Assembly: GCA_022606425.2 (NCBI GenBank)
Contig: JAHDVF020001468.1
Coordinates: 1,116,001 to 1,180,000 of the forward strand
DNA length: 64,000 nucleotides
Reading direction: 5' to 3'
From: Lepidostoma basale
Taxonomy: Eukaryota > Arthropoda > Insecta > Trichoptera > Lepidostomatidae
Both the position numbers and the translations under genes were made by a program. Within the stretch, counting starts at the first letter, position 1. Every line of letters starts with the position of its first letter. The notes below the pieces were generated by a model. That model was not told the DNA's origin. It made no database searches and saw nothing but the letters and a program-made list of their open reading frames with translations. Of the stretch, positions 33,561 to 59,656 are shown piece by piece.

Positions 33561-36500
33561 TAACTAACTAACTAACTAACCATCACGCCGTCTCCCCGAA
33601 GGGGTAGGCAGAAAGAATGGACTGCCACACCTTTCTTTCCTGACATATTTCTCTCGCTTCCTCAACATTCATACATCGTGTCATGCACGCGCGTCGATTT
33701 CTCTGACTCCTCACATGGCCGACATTCAATATTTGATTTATTTGACCGTGCCACGTTTTCCTCGGTCTTCCTCTATTTCTGGTACCATTTACATCATTAA
33801 CATATAATTTTTTACCATTCTTTCTTCATTCATTCTTTCCATATGTCCAAACCATCTTTAATGATCCTTTCATTATTTTGTTCATAACACCATCATTCGC
33901 ACCGCATTCACTTCTTATATTTTCATTCGACACTCTATCATACACAGAGTATCCACACATTCGTCTAAGAGATCTCATTTCTACTGCATTTATTCTACTT
34001 TCATCCTTCTTTTGCCAGTTCCATGCTTCGCTTCCATACATAAGGGTCGGTAGAAGAACACCATTGTGCACTGCCATTCTAGCTTTTTTGGATAGGTTTT
34101 TGTTTGCGATGACAACTTTAAGTGCACCATTCACTTTGTTGCCTGCCCCAACCCTTCTTTCAATATCCCTCTCCACTCGCCCATCTCTTGTAAACATACT
34201 ACCTAAATACACGAACTCAACTACTTGCTCCAAATTTTCACCATTCACGCTAATGTTGCAGACTGTCATGGTTTCTTCCTTTTCAAAAATCATTACCTTG
34301 GACTTATTAACATTCATCATCAGATCATTTCGCATGCATACCTCATACATACAATTCACCAGGACTTGTAGTTCATGCTCGTTGTCAGCAAGTAGGACAG
34401 CGTCATCCGCATACAAGAGACAGCTTACTGACACTCCGCTCATTTTGGCACCTACATCCAACCCTTTCAGCTCTCTCATACAATTGTCCATATACAGATT
34501 AAATAACCACGGGGACATTACGCAACCTTGTTTGACACCTTTATTGATATCAAACCAGGCTGTAAGATCTCCATTTACTCTGACACTAGCAGTGCTTTCC
34601 GTGTATAGCGACTTAATGGCCGTGATCAGTTTTGTACTTATTCCATATTCAGACAATATTTTCCACAACTTTTCTCTATTAACGTAATCATATGCTTTTT
34701 GTAAGTCGACAAATGCACAGAAAAGTTTGCGATTTTTGGCCAGAAACTTCTCTGTCAATGTACGAAGTCCAAAAATTTGATCCATACATCCTCTGCCATT
34801 CATAAAGGCACCTTGCACATCCCAAACTTTGTCACTCGTCAATTTTCTTACTCTTTCTATTAAAATTCTGCCATAGACTTTACCAACGACACTCAAAAGA
34901 CTAATAGCTCTGTGGTTTCCACATTCCATACGCGATCCTTTTCCTTTGTACAGGGGCATAATTACTGCTCTCCTCCAGTCTAGCGGCGTATATCCCTCCT
35001 CCAAGCACTGGTTAAATAACTTACATAACCATGTAGAAACCACTTCGCCACCGCTTTTAATAAAGTCTATGGCAATACAATCAAACCCAACAGCTTTTCC
35101 ACTTTTCATTGCACTCACGGATCTTTTCATCTCATTCGTACTTATTTTTTCAATATTATCATTCATAGGTCCCGCACTCGCACTAGCTGTTATATTTTCG
35201 ATCACGCTTGTATCACCACCATACATCTCCTTAAAATATTCCATCCATCTTTCTTGTATGATCTTACTCTCCGTTAACATTCTTCCCTCGTTGTCTAAAA
35301 TTGCTTTCACACATCCACTATCAGGAGGATTTCGGGCTTTTTTAACTTCTTTCCAAAACATTTTTAAATTTGCTTGGAAGTTGTTTGTCATTTTGAGCCC
35401 TTCTTCCTCCTTCAGCTTTTCTTTCCGCGCTTTCACTACCGACTTCACTCTCTTCTTGCATACCTTATACAAATCTTTTGCTCTTTCATACTTAACTCTG
35501 TCATTCTTATTTATCGACAACATATTCAACCAAGCATCTTTCTTCTCTTTAACAGCAATCTTTACGTCATCATTCCACCATGCATCCCCTTTCTTTCTTC
35601 CTTGTACACACACACCACACGATTCTTTCGCTGATTCACACAAACTCTCCTTCAAGTATTTCCAGGTCTCGTCAATACTCAACTCACTTACATCCCGCTC
35701 ACTCAATCTATCTTTCACTTTTCTTACGAAATTATTTCTTACGTCATTGTTTTGCAGTTTTTCAACTTTGACTCTAGTCGGTGCGGCTACTGTTTTGCTT
35801 CTTCTGGTTCGCCATCCCCGGAATAAGATCACTTTTGCCACTACTAAAAAATGATCCGTTTCCAGTTCGGCTCCCCTGAAGACCCTTGAATCAACAGTAT
35901 CCGCCCGTAATCTAGAGTCTACAATGACGTAATCTATAATGGACCTTTCAAATCCTCTTTCCCAAGTATAGAGATGGATTCTCTTATGATCGAAGATGGT
36001 ATTTGATACAAAGAGACCCCATTCTATACACAACTCAAGCAGTCTCCTTCCATTATCATTTATTCGTCTATCACCAAACGTACCCAGACATTCCTCGTAC
36101 CCACTCCTACGGATTCCCACCCAACCGTTCATATCACCTGCTATTATCAATCTTTCGTTTTCACTCTTACACACCAATGTCTCTCTCACTTTGTCCCAAA
36201 ACTCATCTTTACTCGCCTCATTTTCGTTGTTACCAGGGGCGTATCCAATTAAAAGGAAAACTCTTGTTAACCCGATCTTGAAGCGAATCCACATGAGTCT
36301 TGGGCTAACACATTTATAACCTTTCATACATTCTACCATCCTTGGAGCTAGCACCGCCGCCACGCCTTGGCATGCTCTGTGGTCATTCGGCACACCCGAC
36401 CACAGAACAAGCTTATCCGCATGCTCCAAGGAACCACACTCTTTCATCATACATTCAGTCACACATAAAACATCTAAACACTTTTTATCCATTTCTGCAC

Positions 36501-36642
36501 ACATCTCATTCAACTTTCCTTCCATACCTCCCCTTATATTCCATGTACCGATGCGGCACTCCACCCTTCTCTGTTCGCCCCTGCGGGAGATGCGGTGTGA
36601 TGGGTTGCGGACCTCATCGCCACCAGTAGGCATCACCCGCAC
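33561..36642 (-). mobile_element. near-complete RTE-like non-LTR retrotransposon
   Basis: Minus-strand LINE. Its 3' end is a (TTAG)n tail, seen on + as taactaactaactaactaac at 33561-33580. The coding region ends with SAYPFGETA-stop at 33583, but one extra A in the coding strand near 33857 shifts the frame of the main ORF (33826-36642). Truncated relatives in the window (37550, 39138, 44235, 52403, 54380, 55125 and others) share this C-terminus and tail. The 5' end is not clear: no target duplication was found beyond 36642. RTE-like placement rests on the APE + RT layout, compact size and tail type; a phylogeny could move it to a related clade. Confidence 0.88.
33826..36642 (-). CDS. LINE ORF: AP-endonuclease + reverse transcriptase
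   Basis: 938 codons. The endonuclease (exonuclease-endonuclease-phosphatase fold) spans about residues 30-270: TWNIRG at 33-38, catalytic Glu63 in CVTE, GDMNGWVG at 169-176, SIIDYV with Asp237, and TDH at 262-264. It nicks target DNA to prime cDNA synthesis. The reverse transcriptase spans about 520-830: GNHRAISLLS at 575-584, catalytic Asp in FVDLQKAYD (646), GVKQGCVMSPWLFN at 702-715, and YADD at 744-747. The thumb/C-terminal region has SEAWNW and RRMCGYSVYDR. All catalytic residues are present. The frame breaks after MKGSL at residue 928; other copies continue RWFGHMERMN there through a zinc-knuckle-like and GRPRKTWHDQ region. So this copy lacks about 80 C-terminal residues unless the shift is an assembly error. 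Long + strand ORFs at 33878-34687 and 34946-35854 are antisense shadows. Confidence 0.9.
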   Translation of the reverse strand: MRVMPTGGDEVRNPSHRISRRGEQRRVECRIGTWNIRGGMEGKLNEMCAEMDKKCLDVLCVTECMMKECGSLEHADKLVLWSGVPNDHRACQGVAAVLAPRMVECMKGYKCVSPRLMWIRFKIGLTRVFLLIGYAPGNNENEASKDEFWDKVRETLVCKSENERLIIAGDMNGWVGIRRSGYEECLGTFGDRRINDNGRRLLELCIEWGLFVSNTIFDHKRIHLYTWERGFERSIIDYVIVDSRLRADTVDSRVFRGAELETDHFLVVAKVILFRGWRTRRSKTVAAPTRVKVEKLQNNDVRNNFVRKVKDRLSERDVSELSIDETWKYLKESLCESAKESCGVCVQGRKKGDAWWNDDVKIAVKEKKDAWLNMLSINKNDRVKYERAKDLYKVCKKRVKSVVKARKEKLKEEEGLKMTNNFQANLKMFWKEVKKARNPPDSGCVKAILDNEGRMLTESKIIQERWMEYFKEMYGGDTSVIENITASASAGPMNDNIEKISTNEMKRSVSAMKSGKAVGFDCIAIDFIKSGGEVVSTWLCKLFNQCLEEGYTPLDWRRAVIMPLYKGKGSRMECGNHRAISLLSVVGKVYGRILIERVRKLTSDKVWDVQGAFMNGRGCMDQIFGLRTLTEKFLAKNRKLFCAFVDLQKAYDYVNREKLWKILSEYGISTKLITAIKSLYTESTASVRVNGDLTAWFDINKGVKQGCVMSPWLFNLYMDNCMRELKGLDVGAKMSGVSVSCLLYADDAVLLADNEHELQVLVNCMYEVCMRNDLMMNVNKSKVMIFEKEETMTVCNISVNGENLEQVVEFVYLGSMFTRDGRVERDIERRVGAGNKVNGALKVVIANKNLSKKARMAVHNGVLLPTLMYGSEAWNWQKKDESRINAVEMRSLRRMCGYSVYDRVSNENIRSECGANDGVMNKIMKGSLKMVWTYGKNE

Positions 36643-37549
36643 ACACTTAAATGCTAAATCATTTACAAACTATATCTTAAATAAAATTCAATTATATAAA
36701 ATAAATAAATAAAATAAAATAAATCATAAAATAAAAATAACAAAATATAACACATAAAAAAGTTATAACACATAAGCTATTTTCTAAGATAATATCCTTT
36801 CATTAAAAGTTTGTTTCTTCCGCTACCACCGTTATATTAATAAAATTTTAGTTAGTTAGGCACTTTAAATAGTTTAATTTCCAGCAAGCACTTCAATATG
36901 AATCAAAAGAATTTTTCAAATAGACATCGGAACAAATGTACATAAACGTTCGAAAAATAAAATTATGAAAACCAATTTGGCACCTGTCAAAACACTTCAC
37001 ATAAACAATGTAATTATATTTTTCACCACCAAAACAGCACAAAGGTAAAAATTTTCACAATCAAATATTATTTTGGGATGGCAAGATGCGTATTGGCCAG
37101 GATTATTCACACATGGATCATTTATATATAAATTTTGTCCACTAGTTGACGATGTTTTAAACAAAGGTCAATATTATAATTTGCTCATCCAACAGGACAC
37201 ACCCAACACGTATACGAGGTAACGAACCACAAAGTACTGTTTTAAACATATAAACATTTTTAAAAAATCAATTATACGCCTAAAAACTCCAGTTTTATTG
37301 GAGAAGCCCGCGACTAATTTATAAATATTTATTATTGAAAAACATGTACTCGTATATCTTATAAGTGAGGTTGTTGAGCTTAATGTTATAATTTAATTTG
37401 GTGTCATATCTGTCATAAAATAATATTATACTTTCTCGAGTTTCCGAAGAATTATAAGCGCCAACTACTTTTGCTTTTACCCATTATACATCAAGACAAA
37501 TAATGGCGAAAATTCAGATTTATATGAATTTATAGATGGTGGTGAAGCA
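36643..37549. other. no gene seen
   Basis: AT-rich flank of the RTE-like element. Low-complexity aataaataaataaaataaaa at 36700. Confidence 0.5.
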
Positions 37550-51179: not shown

Positions 51180-51540
51180 CTTTTTAAGTTTCAATCCTAC
51201 GGATTGGCTTGCAGCAAAGTCATTTAACATCTTTGGGGGTTCTTAGGACGCCACTTGAGCCTTTTTAATGTGGTCGTTTCCAGTCGCTTTCCACAATATT
51301 GTATACAACAGATTATTTTAGCCCAATTACTGTATGCAATTTTTAGTTATAGATTCTAGTGACATGTGATACGTAGCTAGTCAATGGGCATTTTTTTATT
51401 GTCACGTCAATTCTACCAGACCAAAGACAGCGTGTGAATTTTTTTCTTCACATTATCATCGGCGGGAATCGAGCCCAGGACCTTCAGTTTGGTAGTCATA
51501 GCTGATCCCACTCTGCGACAAAGCCCACATAATAAATTAT
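51180..51540 (-). mobile_element. tRNA-derived SINE, long form
   Basis: On minus, A-box-like tcgcagagtgg (51508-51518), B-box-like GGCTCGATTCCC (51464-51475), the body, and the second module ending ttgctgcaagccaatccgta near 51190. This is the only uninterrupted long form with both ends. Confidence 0.8.
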
Positions 51541-52084
51541 TTATTAAAATTTAGATGGCTTTTTTAACAATTAAGGTTTATGAATAACTAATACGGATAA
51601 CTTGTATTAACCAACGATAGAGGATGTAAGGAATACCTGATAATCCACCGAGAGGAGGCTAAATGTGCGAAATGCTTTATATCCACGAGCTTAAATATTT
51701 GAATACATACCAGGAAGTCAATTTGGAGGGCTTTTAGAATGAATCGGACCCGATTGGCTGATGCCTGATAGTGTGGGTGGCTAATTATGGATGGTATTTT
51801 TGGTGGATCGGACTGCTTGAATCTGTTGTTTCAGAACTTTTTCAGAACTTTTTTATTAGCTATATGCACAATATACACAAACATAAACATTCAACATAAT
51901 GAAACTAAAATAATAATACATTTATCATATTTCTGTAGCATTGTATAATATTTTTTTGCTAAAAAATCATATTTAATGATTGTTTCGCCTTGCTAGGATA
52001 TTATTGATAACGCATATTTGCAAAGCGGCACGCGTCACTACCATAAAATATAATAAACTCCAAAAAAAAAACAGCGTTTCCTTC

Positions 52085-52260
52085 AATGTTAGTTAATTTT
52101 AATGGCGTTTTACATCAATGTTCAAGAAACAATAAATAAAAGTGACAGTGTCAATACCCAACAATAGAATCATTGTAATGAAGTTAGTATGAGACATGTA
52201 AATTAAACAAATGATACATATTTATTGTTTCCTGGAAGTCTATGTAAAACTCCATTTGAA
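52085..52260. repeat. family C arms, rearranged
   Basis: aatggcgttttacatcaatg, ttcaagaaacaataaata, then later ttattgtttcctggaagtct, atgtaaaactccattt. Two arm ends face each other around 100 bp of other sequence. A GTTTCGCC-type core relic lies at 51980. Confidence 0.5.
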
Positions 52261-52344
52261 ATATAGAACTTGACAACAAAAAGCAATTGTTTTCGCCATA
52301 AATTCGTGTATTGTGTGCTTTATTATTATACTCGTATGATTTGG

Positions 52345-53070
52345 AGTAGTGTCTCCTTCAGACAGAAAGTCCTTCGTCGATTTTATTCAGTTTTATTTTA
52401 TTTTAATCGACGTGCGTGCATGGTGCGATGTATGAATGTGGAGGAAGCCCGAGAGGTGTGCCAGGACAGGCCAGTGTGGCGATCCATCCTCTCTGCCTAC
52501 CCCTCCGGGGAAATGGCGTGATGGTTAGTTAGTTAGTTTAGTTAGTTTATTTTATTCCAGAGAGACTATTCCCTAGTGTCTCCTTGAGGCAGAATGTTCG
52601 CCTTCGATAATAATGAGTTTTATTTTGTTCCAGCGTGACTATACCCTAATGTCTCCTTGAGGCAGAAAGTTCGCCTTCGATAATAATGAGTTTTATTTCG
52701 TTTCAGAGTGACAATTCCCTAGTGTTTCCTTGAGGCATGTTCGCCTTCGATAACAATAAGTTTTATTTCGTTTCAGAGCGACTATTTCCTAGTGTTTCCT
52801 TGAGGCAGAAAGTTCGCCTTCGATAGTAATGAGTTTTATTTCGTTTCAGAGCGACTATTCCCTAGTGTCTCCTTGAGGCAGAAAGTTCGCCTTCGATAAT
52901 AATGTTGTTCCAGGGTGACTATTCCCTAGTGACTCTTTGAGACAGAAAGTTCGCCTTCAATATAATGAATTTTATTTTGTTCCAGAGTGACTATTCCCTA
53001 GTGTCTCTTTGAGGCAGAAAGTTCGCCTTCGATAATAATGAGTTTTATTTTGTTTCAGAGTGACTATTCC
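52345..53070 (+). repeat. 73-bp tandem array duplicating the bib splice-acceptor junction
   Basis: Unit consensus runs: agtgactattccctag, tgtctccttgaggcag, aaagttcgccttcgataa, taatgagttttatttt, gtttcag. The AGs of the cag|agtgac junctions end at 52560, 52633, 52706, 52776, 52849, 52913, 52985 and, for the real exon, 53058, so the spacing is 73,73,70,73,64,72,73. The last unit passes into the bib exon after AGTGACTATTCC. The first unit is split by a LINE fragment (52403-52545), and its 5' part at about 52350-52402 is diverged. Each unit contains its own pyrimidine tract, AG and exon-like start. Confidence 0.92.
52403..52545 (+). mobile_element. RTE-like LINE 3' fragment inserted in the tandem array
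   Basis: This is the last ~35 codons of the RTE-like LINE family (RRACMVRCMNVEEAREVCQ then SAYPSGEMA-stop) and its TTAG-repeat tail. It is flanked by an 11-bp target duplication, TTTATTTTATT, at 52392-52402 and 52546-52556. It lies in the pyrimidine tract of one array unit, so the insertion is younger than the array. Confidence 0.85.
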
Positions 53071-53263
53071 TGGCTACCAGGGCAACCTGCAGTCCGGGCT
53101 GGTGACGATCCCTGGCGCCTGGGAACGCTTCGGGCTGGAGTTCATCCTGACCTTCATCGTGGTGCTCACCCACTGCGTGTCCTCGGAGCGGCCCACCACC
53201 GGACCCCGCGCAAGCTCTGCCCTCCCCGTCGGCGCCGCCTACGCCGCCTGCAGCCTGGTTTCG
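53059..53263 (+). CDS. bib: big brain (aquaporin-like) internal exon, MIP helices 4-5 region
   Basis: Internal coding exon of the neurogenic MIP-family protein big brain, a plasma-membrane protein that promotes Notch-dependent lateral inhibition. It opens with one base of a split codon (acceptor tttcag at 53053-53058), then reads VTIPGYQGNLQ. The helix WERFGLEFILTFIVVLTHCV follows, with the Glu that MIP proteins keep in this helix, then ALPVGAAYAACSLVS. It ends in phase 0 at the donor TCG|GTTAGT, which joins exactly to the exon at 59350. The exon is GC-rich against an AT-rich background, as are the next two. The GTG at 53060 is not a start, because the protein needs upstream exons that are not in this window. 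Its acceptor is the last unit of a 73-bp tandem array (52345-53070). The family call is firm; naming it bib rather than another MIP rests on the matching C-terminal exons. Confidence 0.88.
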
Positions 53264-53364
53264 GTTAGTTTCACTTCACACATTTATACAATTATAAAGA
53301 GTGAACATTTTTTCATAAGGCTTTCCAATTACTATATATAATTTGTTATTTAGTTATTACATTG

Positions 53365-53545
53365 TTTCTCATGACATATGTAAGAGGTAGTTGATCTATC
53401 GCCATTTTATTGTTACGCGAATTCTACACCAGACCAAAGACAATGTGACAATCACACTGCCGTCGCCGGTAATCGAACCCGGAATCTTTAATGTGGCAGT
53501 CATAGCTCTTGCCACTCTGCCACTAAGATCGACAATATCATACGA
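53365..53545 (-). mobile_element. tRNA-derived SINE in bib intron
   Basis: On minus, A box tggcagagtggc (53511-53522), B-box-like GGTTCGATTACC, and the body through aaaatggcgatagatcaact. It begins about 100 bp after the donor at 53263. Confidence 0.83.
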
Positions 53546-53934
53546 CGAGTCGTGTGTACTGGTTGTTATTAACTAATTTAGAATTAATATGTTGCTCCAT
53601 TCAGTATATTCGTCATCTTTGATATTATTTTTACAAAGTTATAATGGGAATGTGAAATAAAAATGTGTATCGTAATGAATAAAGAAAGATCAAATTATAT
53701 GAACACGGAATACTCAAAATACGATTTATTTTTCCTATCTATTCATGCAGATATGCATATTACCAAAATCATTTTGATCTTCCTTCCTCTTGACAATGGT
53801 AGTAGTAGACATCTTGCCAAGTTATCTCTGGATTAGCCAACACGTATTGGTTCAGGGTTTCCCAAGTCCTTCAAGACAACTCTTGTCCCGGTGGTAATGC
53901 CTCTGCCCTTAGCTTCTCTTCCATTCATCTGGGC

Positions 53935-54365
53935 TTTCAAATCAAATCAAATCAAATCAGTTTATTTACTCAAAAGACATTACAAACAGCATAAATGTTT
54001 AAGGCATCTATTGAGTACAGGTAAGTTATTATACACATGCAACATAATACCAGGAACGCATTAGTGATGGTTCGACATTAGGAAGATAAGATACTTTTCA
54101 AAGTCAAGAGTATTTGTCCCCTGAACGTACTTTCACTAACACGAAAGACGTCGATCTCCAAGGAGATCGCTTTCAGCAGACTAATTGCTCTTCCCACCGG
54201 TGTCACCAGAGGCAGATTGGTTCTGGCGGCCGGTAGGTAAAACAATCTGTGCTGTCGCTGTCGGAGATATCTATCGGGGACAAAAATTCGAGTGCAGTGG
54301 TGAAGTGGAATTTAGGAAACCATTCCTTAATTTTAATCAATCTTGAGGCTGGAAATTCGTGGTTG
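53935..54365 (-). mobile_element. CR1/L2-like LINE 3' end in bib intron
   Basis: The minus strand carries LPAARTNLPLVTPVGRAISL-like coding relics, then the 3' end module and a pentamer tail (aaatcaaatcaaatcaaatc on + at 53940). The same family is at 23690 and 55975. Confidence 0.75.
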
Positions 54366-59349: not shown

Positions 59350-59656
59350 ATACCATACCTGAACCCGGCGCGCGCGCTGGGCCCCGCCTTCGTGCTGAAC
59401 CGTTGGGAGGGCCACTGGGTGGCGTGGGCGGGCGGACTATCGGGCGGGGCGGGCGCGGCGCTGCTGCACGCGCTCGTGCTGGCGCGCCGCCCGCGGGACA
59501 AGGACTCGCCCGACGGTGACTCGAGCAGCGTGCACTCGGACGAGGATGCCTACGACGACCTGGACAAGCACCCCCAGCAGACCAGGAAGTTCCCCGCCTA
59601 TGCCACCTATCGCCCCGCGCAGCCGCCACAACCGGCTCACCTCTCGAACCCTGCGG
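59350..59656 (+). CDS. bib: big brain exon with second NPA box, last membrane helix and acidic tail
   Basis: This exon follows acceptor cttccag (59343-59349) in phase 0. It begins IPYLNPARALGPAFVLNRW: the NPA box that dips into the pore, followed by the Arg that MIP channels use in the selectivity filter. The last membrane helix is GHWVAWAGGLSGGAGAALL. Then come the basic stop-transfer residues ARRPRDK and the cytoplasmic DSSSVHSDEDAYDDLDK, a Ser/Asp cluster characteristic of insect bib and a likely phosphorylation region. The exon is about 70% GC. It ends after one base of a Gly codon at donor GCGG|GTCAGT, which fits the acceptor at 61092. A LINE fragment with a 12-bp target duplication ends only 34 bp before the acceptor, and a pogo-like MITE begins 26 bp after the exon. 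Long antisense ORFs here are GC-driven shadows. Confidence 0.93.

Follow-up and report, generated by a model that had tools for sequence, protein, structure and literature searches.

The junction between intron 2 and exon 3 of the bib gene of the trichopteran insect Lepidostoma basale is copied in a tandem array, in which seven decoy splice acceptors precede the real one. The array lies in the 64,000-nucleotide stretch of DNA analyzed here (contig JAHDVF020001468.1, positions 1,116,001 to 1,180,000 of the forward strand), which is called the window below and whose first letter is position 1. In our judgment the array is probably a minisatellite that grew from this junction and is tolerated by the gene, that is, a "mirage" in the sense in which the word is used for amphioxus. 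Judged from its sequence, it is most likely a tolerated tandem duplication, whose real acceptor would be picked via exon definition.

Structure of the junction array

The initial annotation had described seven tandem copies of the junction ahead of the real acceptor. Tandem Repeats Finder (TRF) bore this out, returning a single array at 52546-53070 with a period of 73, 7.4 copies, 85% matches and a score of 749, and all eight AG coordinates given earlier proved exact. Each unit is made up of 45 bases of intron, a 13-base T-rich tract, CAG and 12 bases of the exon start. The proposed spacing of about 73 bp holds for the period, but individual units range from 64 to 73 bp (73, 73, 70, 73, 64, 72 and 73 bp for whole units 1 to 7). 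The extent of the array was likewise confirmed, but a further part of unit 0, upstream of an inserted fragment of a long interspersed nuclear element (LINE), had been missed (Table 1). In the seven decoys, in order, the copies of the 12 exon bases differ from AGTGACTATTCC at 1, 2, 1, 2, 1, 1 and 0 positions. Pairwise identity among units 1 to 7 is 81-95%. Unit 0, once rejoined, is 73-79% identical to them; it is the most diverged unit and occupies the edge of the array, and the similarity of neighboring units is not significant. Two features of a mirage are present: the array is a minisatellite-like tandem repeat, and its unit reaches across an exon-intron boundary, so that the splice signal there is copied with it.

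Dinucleotide shuffling of region 52340-53300, done 200 times in each of two runs, gave no TRF array with a period of at least 30, and with identical settings the unshuffled region gave the array of score 749. Arrays with a period of at least 30 and at least three copies cover 882 of 264000 bases in the 264 kb around bib, and a tandem array touches just one of the eight exon boundaries of the gene, the exon 3 acceptor. Assembly easily gets the copy number of a tandem array wrong, so that a false duplication or an incorrect count of units has to be considered. We find such an artefact highly improbable, because every unit differs from the others within the identity range given for units 1 to 7, a LINE lies inside unit 0, and bib exons 1 to 5 are ordered on one 3.29-Mb contig.

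Table 1. Features of bib and of the junction array in the window
Feature	Position	Strand	Basis or remark
Unit 0, left part, most diverged unit, LINE-interrupted	52347..52403	+	79% to array units, E 3e-8
3' end of 5'-truncated retrotransposon without long terminal repeats (non-LTR), GTTA-type tail, inside unit 0	52403..52545	+	
Unit 0, right part, decoy AG ending 52560	52546..52572	+	
Unit 1, decoy AG ending 52633	52573..52645	+	
Unit 2, decoy AG ending 52706	52646..52718	+	
Unit 3, decoy AG ending 52776	52719..52788	+	
Unit 4, decoy AG ending 52849	52789..52861	+	
Unit 5, decoy AG ending 52913, 9 bp missing from the tract and the bases before it	52862..52925	+	
Unit 6, decoy AG ending 52985	52926..52997	+	
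Unit 7, real acceptor AG ending 53058 and first 12 exon bases	52998..53070	+	1 substitution from consensus
bib exon 3, 205 nt (VTIPGYQGNL...CSLVS), donor TCG/GTTAGT	53059..53263	+	tblastn; Pfam MIP jointly with exon 4, E 2.3e-20
bib exon 4 (IPYLNPAR...), delimited by acceptor CTTCCAG and donor GTCAGT	59350..59656	+	match to insect Big brain
bib exon 5, C-terminal tail through stop codon	61092..61666	+	match to insect Big brain

Reading phase and quality of the decoy acceptors

By its sequence the gene is bib, of the aquaporin family, as it had already been named: exons 3 to 5 match insect Big brain proteins, and exons 3 and 4 match Pfam MIP. We took 200 kb upstream of the window from the same genome and located exons 1 and 2 there by tblastn. 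Exon 2 ends at TATGG/GTGAGT, and the intron between it and exon 3, which carries the array at its 3' end, measures 144,704 bp. With the end of exon 2 located, the reading phase at exon 3 is fixed. Joined in silico to the real AG, exons 1 and 2 lead into GVTIPGYQGNL and the frame reads on through exon 3. Splicing in silico to the decoys gave a stop after residue 155 in seven of seven cases, and an exon started at a decoy would measure 278 to 703 nt as against 205 nt for the real one. The stop lies at the breakpoint of the array, where the copied exon bases end in ATTCC and the intron part follows directly with (C)TAG; the stop reads TAG in six copies and TAA in one. Thus, because the breakpoint falls 12 bp into the exon, a stop codon is present in each of the decoys. 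Both halves of the aquaporin fold are required, so the use of a decoy should amount to loss of function. Exon 3 itself contains VTIPG twice (53060-53116), encoded by GTGACTATTCCTGGC at 53060 and by GTGACGATCCCTGGC at 53102; the second place differs in all 40 Bib relatives listed.

The acceptors had been described as eight nearly equal ones, which suits the real site and five decoys, six of the eight being plausible from sequence. These five differ from the real site at 1-3 positions when 20 intronic and 3 exonic bases are compared. The description does not suit the decoys ending at 52560 and 52913, which differ at 8 of the 23 positions; the former has the LINE just upstream and the latter bears the 9-bp deletion in and before the tract. 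When 2817 AGs of the window were scored with untrained acceptor frequencies, each of the eight ranked above 97.7% of them. The sequence AG/GT, expected of a recursive splice site or a proto-splice site, is found at none of the eight acceptor sites. ATAAT occurs 15-50 nt before the AG in four of the eight units, and it is a guess that it might serve as branch site. At the start of unit 2, CCCTAATG (52644-52651) includes CTAAT, which resembles a branch site; the other whole units read CTAGT here. No known RNA family reached the gathering score in 51500-54000.

Gaps excluded, units 1 to 7 show substitutions from their consensus at 27 of 498 sites, distributed as 7/84 in the exon copies, 6/84 in the tract, 0/21 in CAG and 14/309 farther upstream; CAG is in fact identical in all eight units. 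Unit 7 carries one substitution and units 1 to 6 carry 2-7 each. The few changes in unit 7 would fit constraint on the single module in use, the numbers being small.

That five decoys so closely resemble the real site could mean that several AGs are spliced constitutively into an exon with many acceptors. This is very unlikely, since each upstream AG leads to a stop after 155 residues, at a large cost in Bib output, and since amphioxus mirages are reported, in the account of the globin genes, without interference with regular splicing (PMC3087553). Another possibility is that the decoys are kept as a regulated ladder of poison acceptors, whose use, tuned by splicing factors, would lower Bib through truncated or decayed mRNA, array length setting the dose. 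The identical 155-residue stop behind all seven decoys, the unchanged CAG and the high scores of the eight AGs (on the untrained frequencies) agree with such a ladder. However, shared stops and AGs are expected by descent from one unit at about 5% divergence (27/498), decoys 52560 and 52913 are damaged or displaced, and drift has gone further in whole units 1 to 6 than in unit 7. We therefore hold regulation of this kind to be unlikely. It seems quite unlikely, too, that the ladder varies in length, each added module being one more AG leading to the 155-residue stop and repeat number tuning Bib dose. If it did, a neurogenic channel gene would be adjusted by its number of repeats, by way of splicing and decay.

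Origin and relative age of the array

Two origins had been offered in the initial annotation, growth of the array from the junction and recruitment of the exon start from a repeat, and occurrence of the unit away from bib was the point to be checked. In the species' own genome nothing was found beyond the array and unit 0: the array used as query against the 768.8-Mb assembly matched only these at E<=1e-3, in a DNA search that skips very common words and scores the best candidates only. A single-unit query in 264 kb outside the array gave short, weak best matches (E 0.04 and up), and the unit pattern had no matches in viral contigs. Relatives of the bib exons were also sought in the viral contigs, where none of 57 pattern matches was confirmed.

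The peptide encoded at the exon start was compared in a set of 137 proteins, taken from the best 120 of 249 and the best 120 of 254 matches; no Lepidoptera are among the names shown for these matches. An LYG motif precedes the site in 88 of them and is absent from 49. Among the 88, LYG is followed by VTVP in 42 and by VTIP in 3, and the full peptide reads VTVPGYQGNL in 31 and VTIPGYQGNL in 2. Some proteins of the set look like other aquaporins, for example eight that show VTTPSNTQTL. Insect Bib proteins commonly carry VT(V/I)PGYQGNL at this point, which makes growth of the array out of the junction the most likely origin. In all likelihood the exon start came first and was taken up by the repeat, not the reverse.

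Concerning relative age, the LINE fragment in unit 0 is informative. A minus-strand copy at 44365-44226 shows 91% similarity to it across 140 nt, and this LINE 3' end is present in many genomic copies. The fragment is flanked on both sides by TTTATTTTATT (52392-52402 and 52546-52556, 11 bp). When the LINE end was matched to the genome, the best alignments often continued into TTTATTTTA, which would suit the element's own end. Yet among 24 further copies that share this tail (264 kb, counted by eye), just 1 has TTTATTTTATT behind it, and for this reason the pair is probably an 11-bp target-site duplication rather than the element's own end. No LINE interrupts this site in units 1 to 7, which makes it most likely that the first duplication happened before the insertion. 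Elsewhere in the window there are several 3' fragments resembling this piece and, at 33826-36669 on the minus strand, a LINE with an open frame of 947 codons. The LINE protein search gave 34 matches, one of them from Cydia pomonella (43% over half of the query). A Chorion_1 search, which bears on the order of the insect, had no match; as it had none in 14 control genomes either, it carries no information. A short inverted repeat lies upstream of the array at 52101-52256 (82% over 38 bases, 52138-52101 against 52219-52256).

A first genome search with array and LINE together as query returned 43 matches. Apart from the array's own locus these were 42 matches to the LINE part, one of which (L031) extends to 52574 at 85%. 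This match bears on recruitment of the exon start from a pre-existing satellite or mobile repeat, as the bases after the LINE in L031 loosely match the right part of unit 0 (22/29, hand count), the unit holds a full acceptor module and the LINE sits in the array. However, L031 is the longest of the 42 LINE matches and was picked by score, and the 24 other same-tail copies in 264 kb have mixed flanks; we take the likeness for chance in a T-rich stretch. Moreover, no copy of the array was found elsewhere in the assembly, VT(V/I)PGYQGNL is common at the same place in the Bib of other insects and the LINE appears to be a later insertion. Recruitment is thus extremely unlikely, and a dispersed satellite or mobile repeat was rejected as the source for want of a second locus in 768.8 Mb. 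Growth from the junction is the origin that the single locus and the common peptide support.

Growth from the junction might have proceeded as follows. A tandem duplication would have linked exon 3, just behind the ATTCC near its start, to the intron about 60 bp before the acceptor, so that tract, AG and 12 exon bases were copied as a single module. Eight modules would then have arisen by slippage or unequal exchange, acting repeatedly, and the LINE presumably split the most upstream of them later. What may make the array tolerable is that the whole exon still follows the last module. Up to the AG the modules resemble one another, so any distinguishing feature should lie mainly downstream, and the choice of the real acceptor would rest mainly on downstream features, that is, the exon body and the 5' splice site (donor at 53263); with an intron of 144.7 kb, exon definition is expected. 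If a decoy were used, four extra codons and a stop would yield a 155-residue protein without the second channel half, or the transcript would undergo nonsense-mediated decay.

Several observations weigh against this account. Neighbors are as alike or more in 1032 of 5040 unit orderings, so that stepwise local growth is not demonstrated. The low count in unit 7 (1 as against a mean of 3.9 per unit) could be chance and was noticed post hoc. An invariant CAG is not required of a useless decoy, a weak objection given that 2 of 71 three-column windows are invariant at this low divergence. A YTNAY branch site is absent 15-50 nt before the AG in all eight units. The target-site duplication is T-rich and could be partly chance. 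Finally, in L031 (positions 270-343) a copy of the LINE tail runs into a stretch with a loose likeness to the right part of unit 0.

Comparison with known systems

We read the bib array as a further case of a known kind, the mirage, in an insect. It suggests that an insect gene, too, can tolerate boundary-spanning minisatellites, which the literature cited here describes from amphioxus. A limited search of the open-licence literature found no insect junction array, which is not proof of absence. The array also offers a natural experiment on acceptor choice, with eight acceptor modules in one intron and a real exon behind the last one only. The use of each AG could separate, within one transcript, a rule in which the first AG wins from one in which the first transcribed wins and one in which exon definition wins, and the read-out would be clean because every decoy gives the identical stop.

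Several acceptors also compete at one exon in NAGNAG and other short tandem acceptors, which lie 3 nt apart. The acceptors of bib, unlike these, are 64-73 nt apart and each has its own tract. Alternatively spliced human introns have reportedly arisen from tandem arrays with internal splice sites. In the intron gains described as tandem genomic duplications of AGGT proto-splice sites (PMC3443670, PMC2891723), the duplication copies a splice signal, as it does in bib. The bib array differs in that an existing acceptor is copied, AG/GT occurs at none of the eight sites and no new intron position is seen. Gain of a new intron was accordingly rejected for bib, the phase and peptide also being continuous at the real site.

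The closest likeness is with the amphioxus mirages, which include Adh3, the globin genes BflGb6 and BflGb9, troponin C and PGBD5; the bib case is known from the sequence of one assembly. The boundary-spanning arrays of the globin genes were named mirages after Adh3 (PMC3087553), and troponin C and PGBD5 are described as further amphioxus examples (PMC3902484). As in bib, the BflGb6 array is reported to repeat the 3' end of an intron and the 5' part of an exon, and many units carry AG/GT splice signals. Unit identity is given as 81-100% in BflGb6 and is 81-95% in bib units 1 to 7. The BflGb6 haplotypes have 6 and 3 units, and reverse transcription PCR suggests that they are spliced regularly (PMC3087553). 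Unit size is different, being 73 bp in bib as against a reported 150-160 bp in BflGb6 and 10-72 bp in Adh3. Unlike the amphioxus mirages, the bib array belongs to an insect gene and to a very long intron, its edge unit is split by a LINE, and all its decoys lead to a stop.
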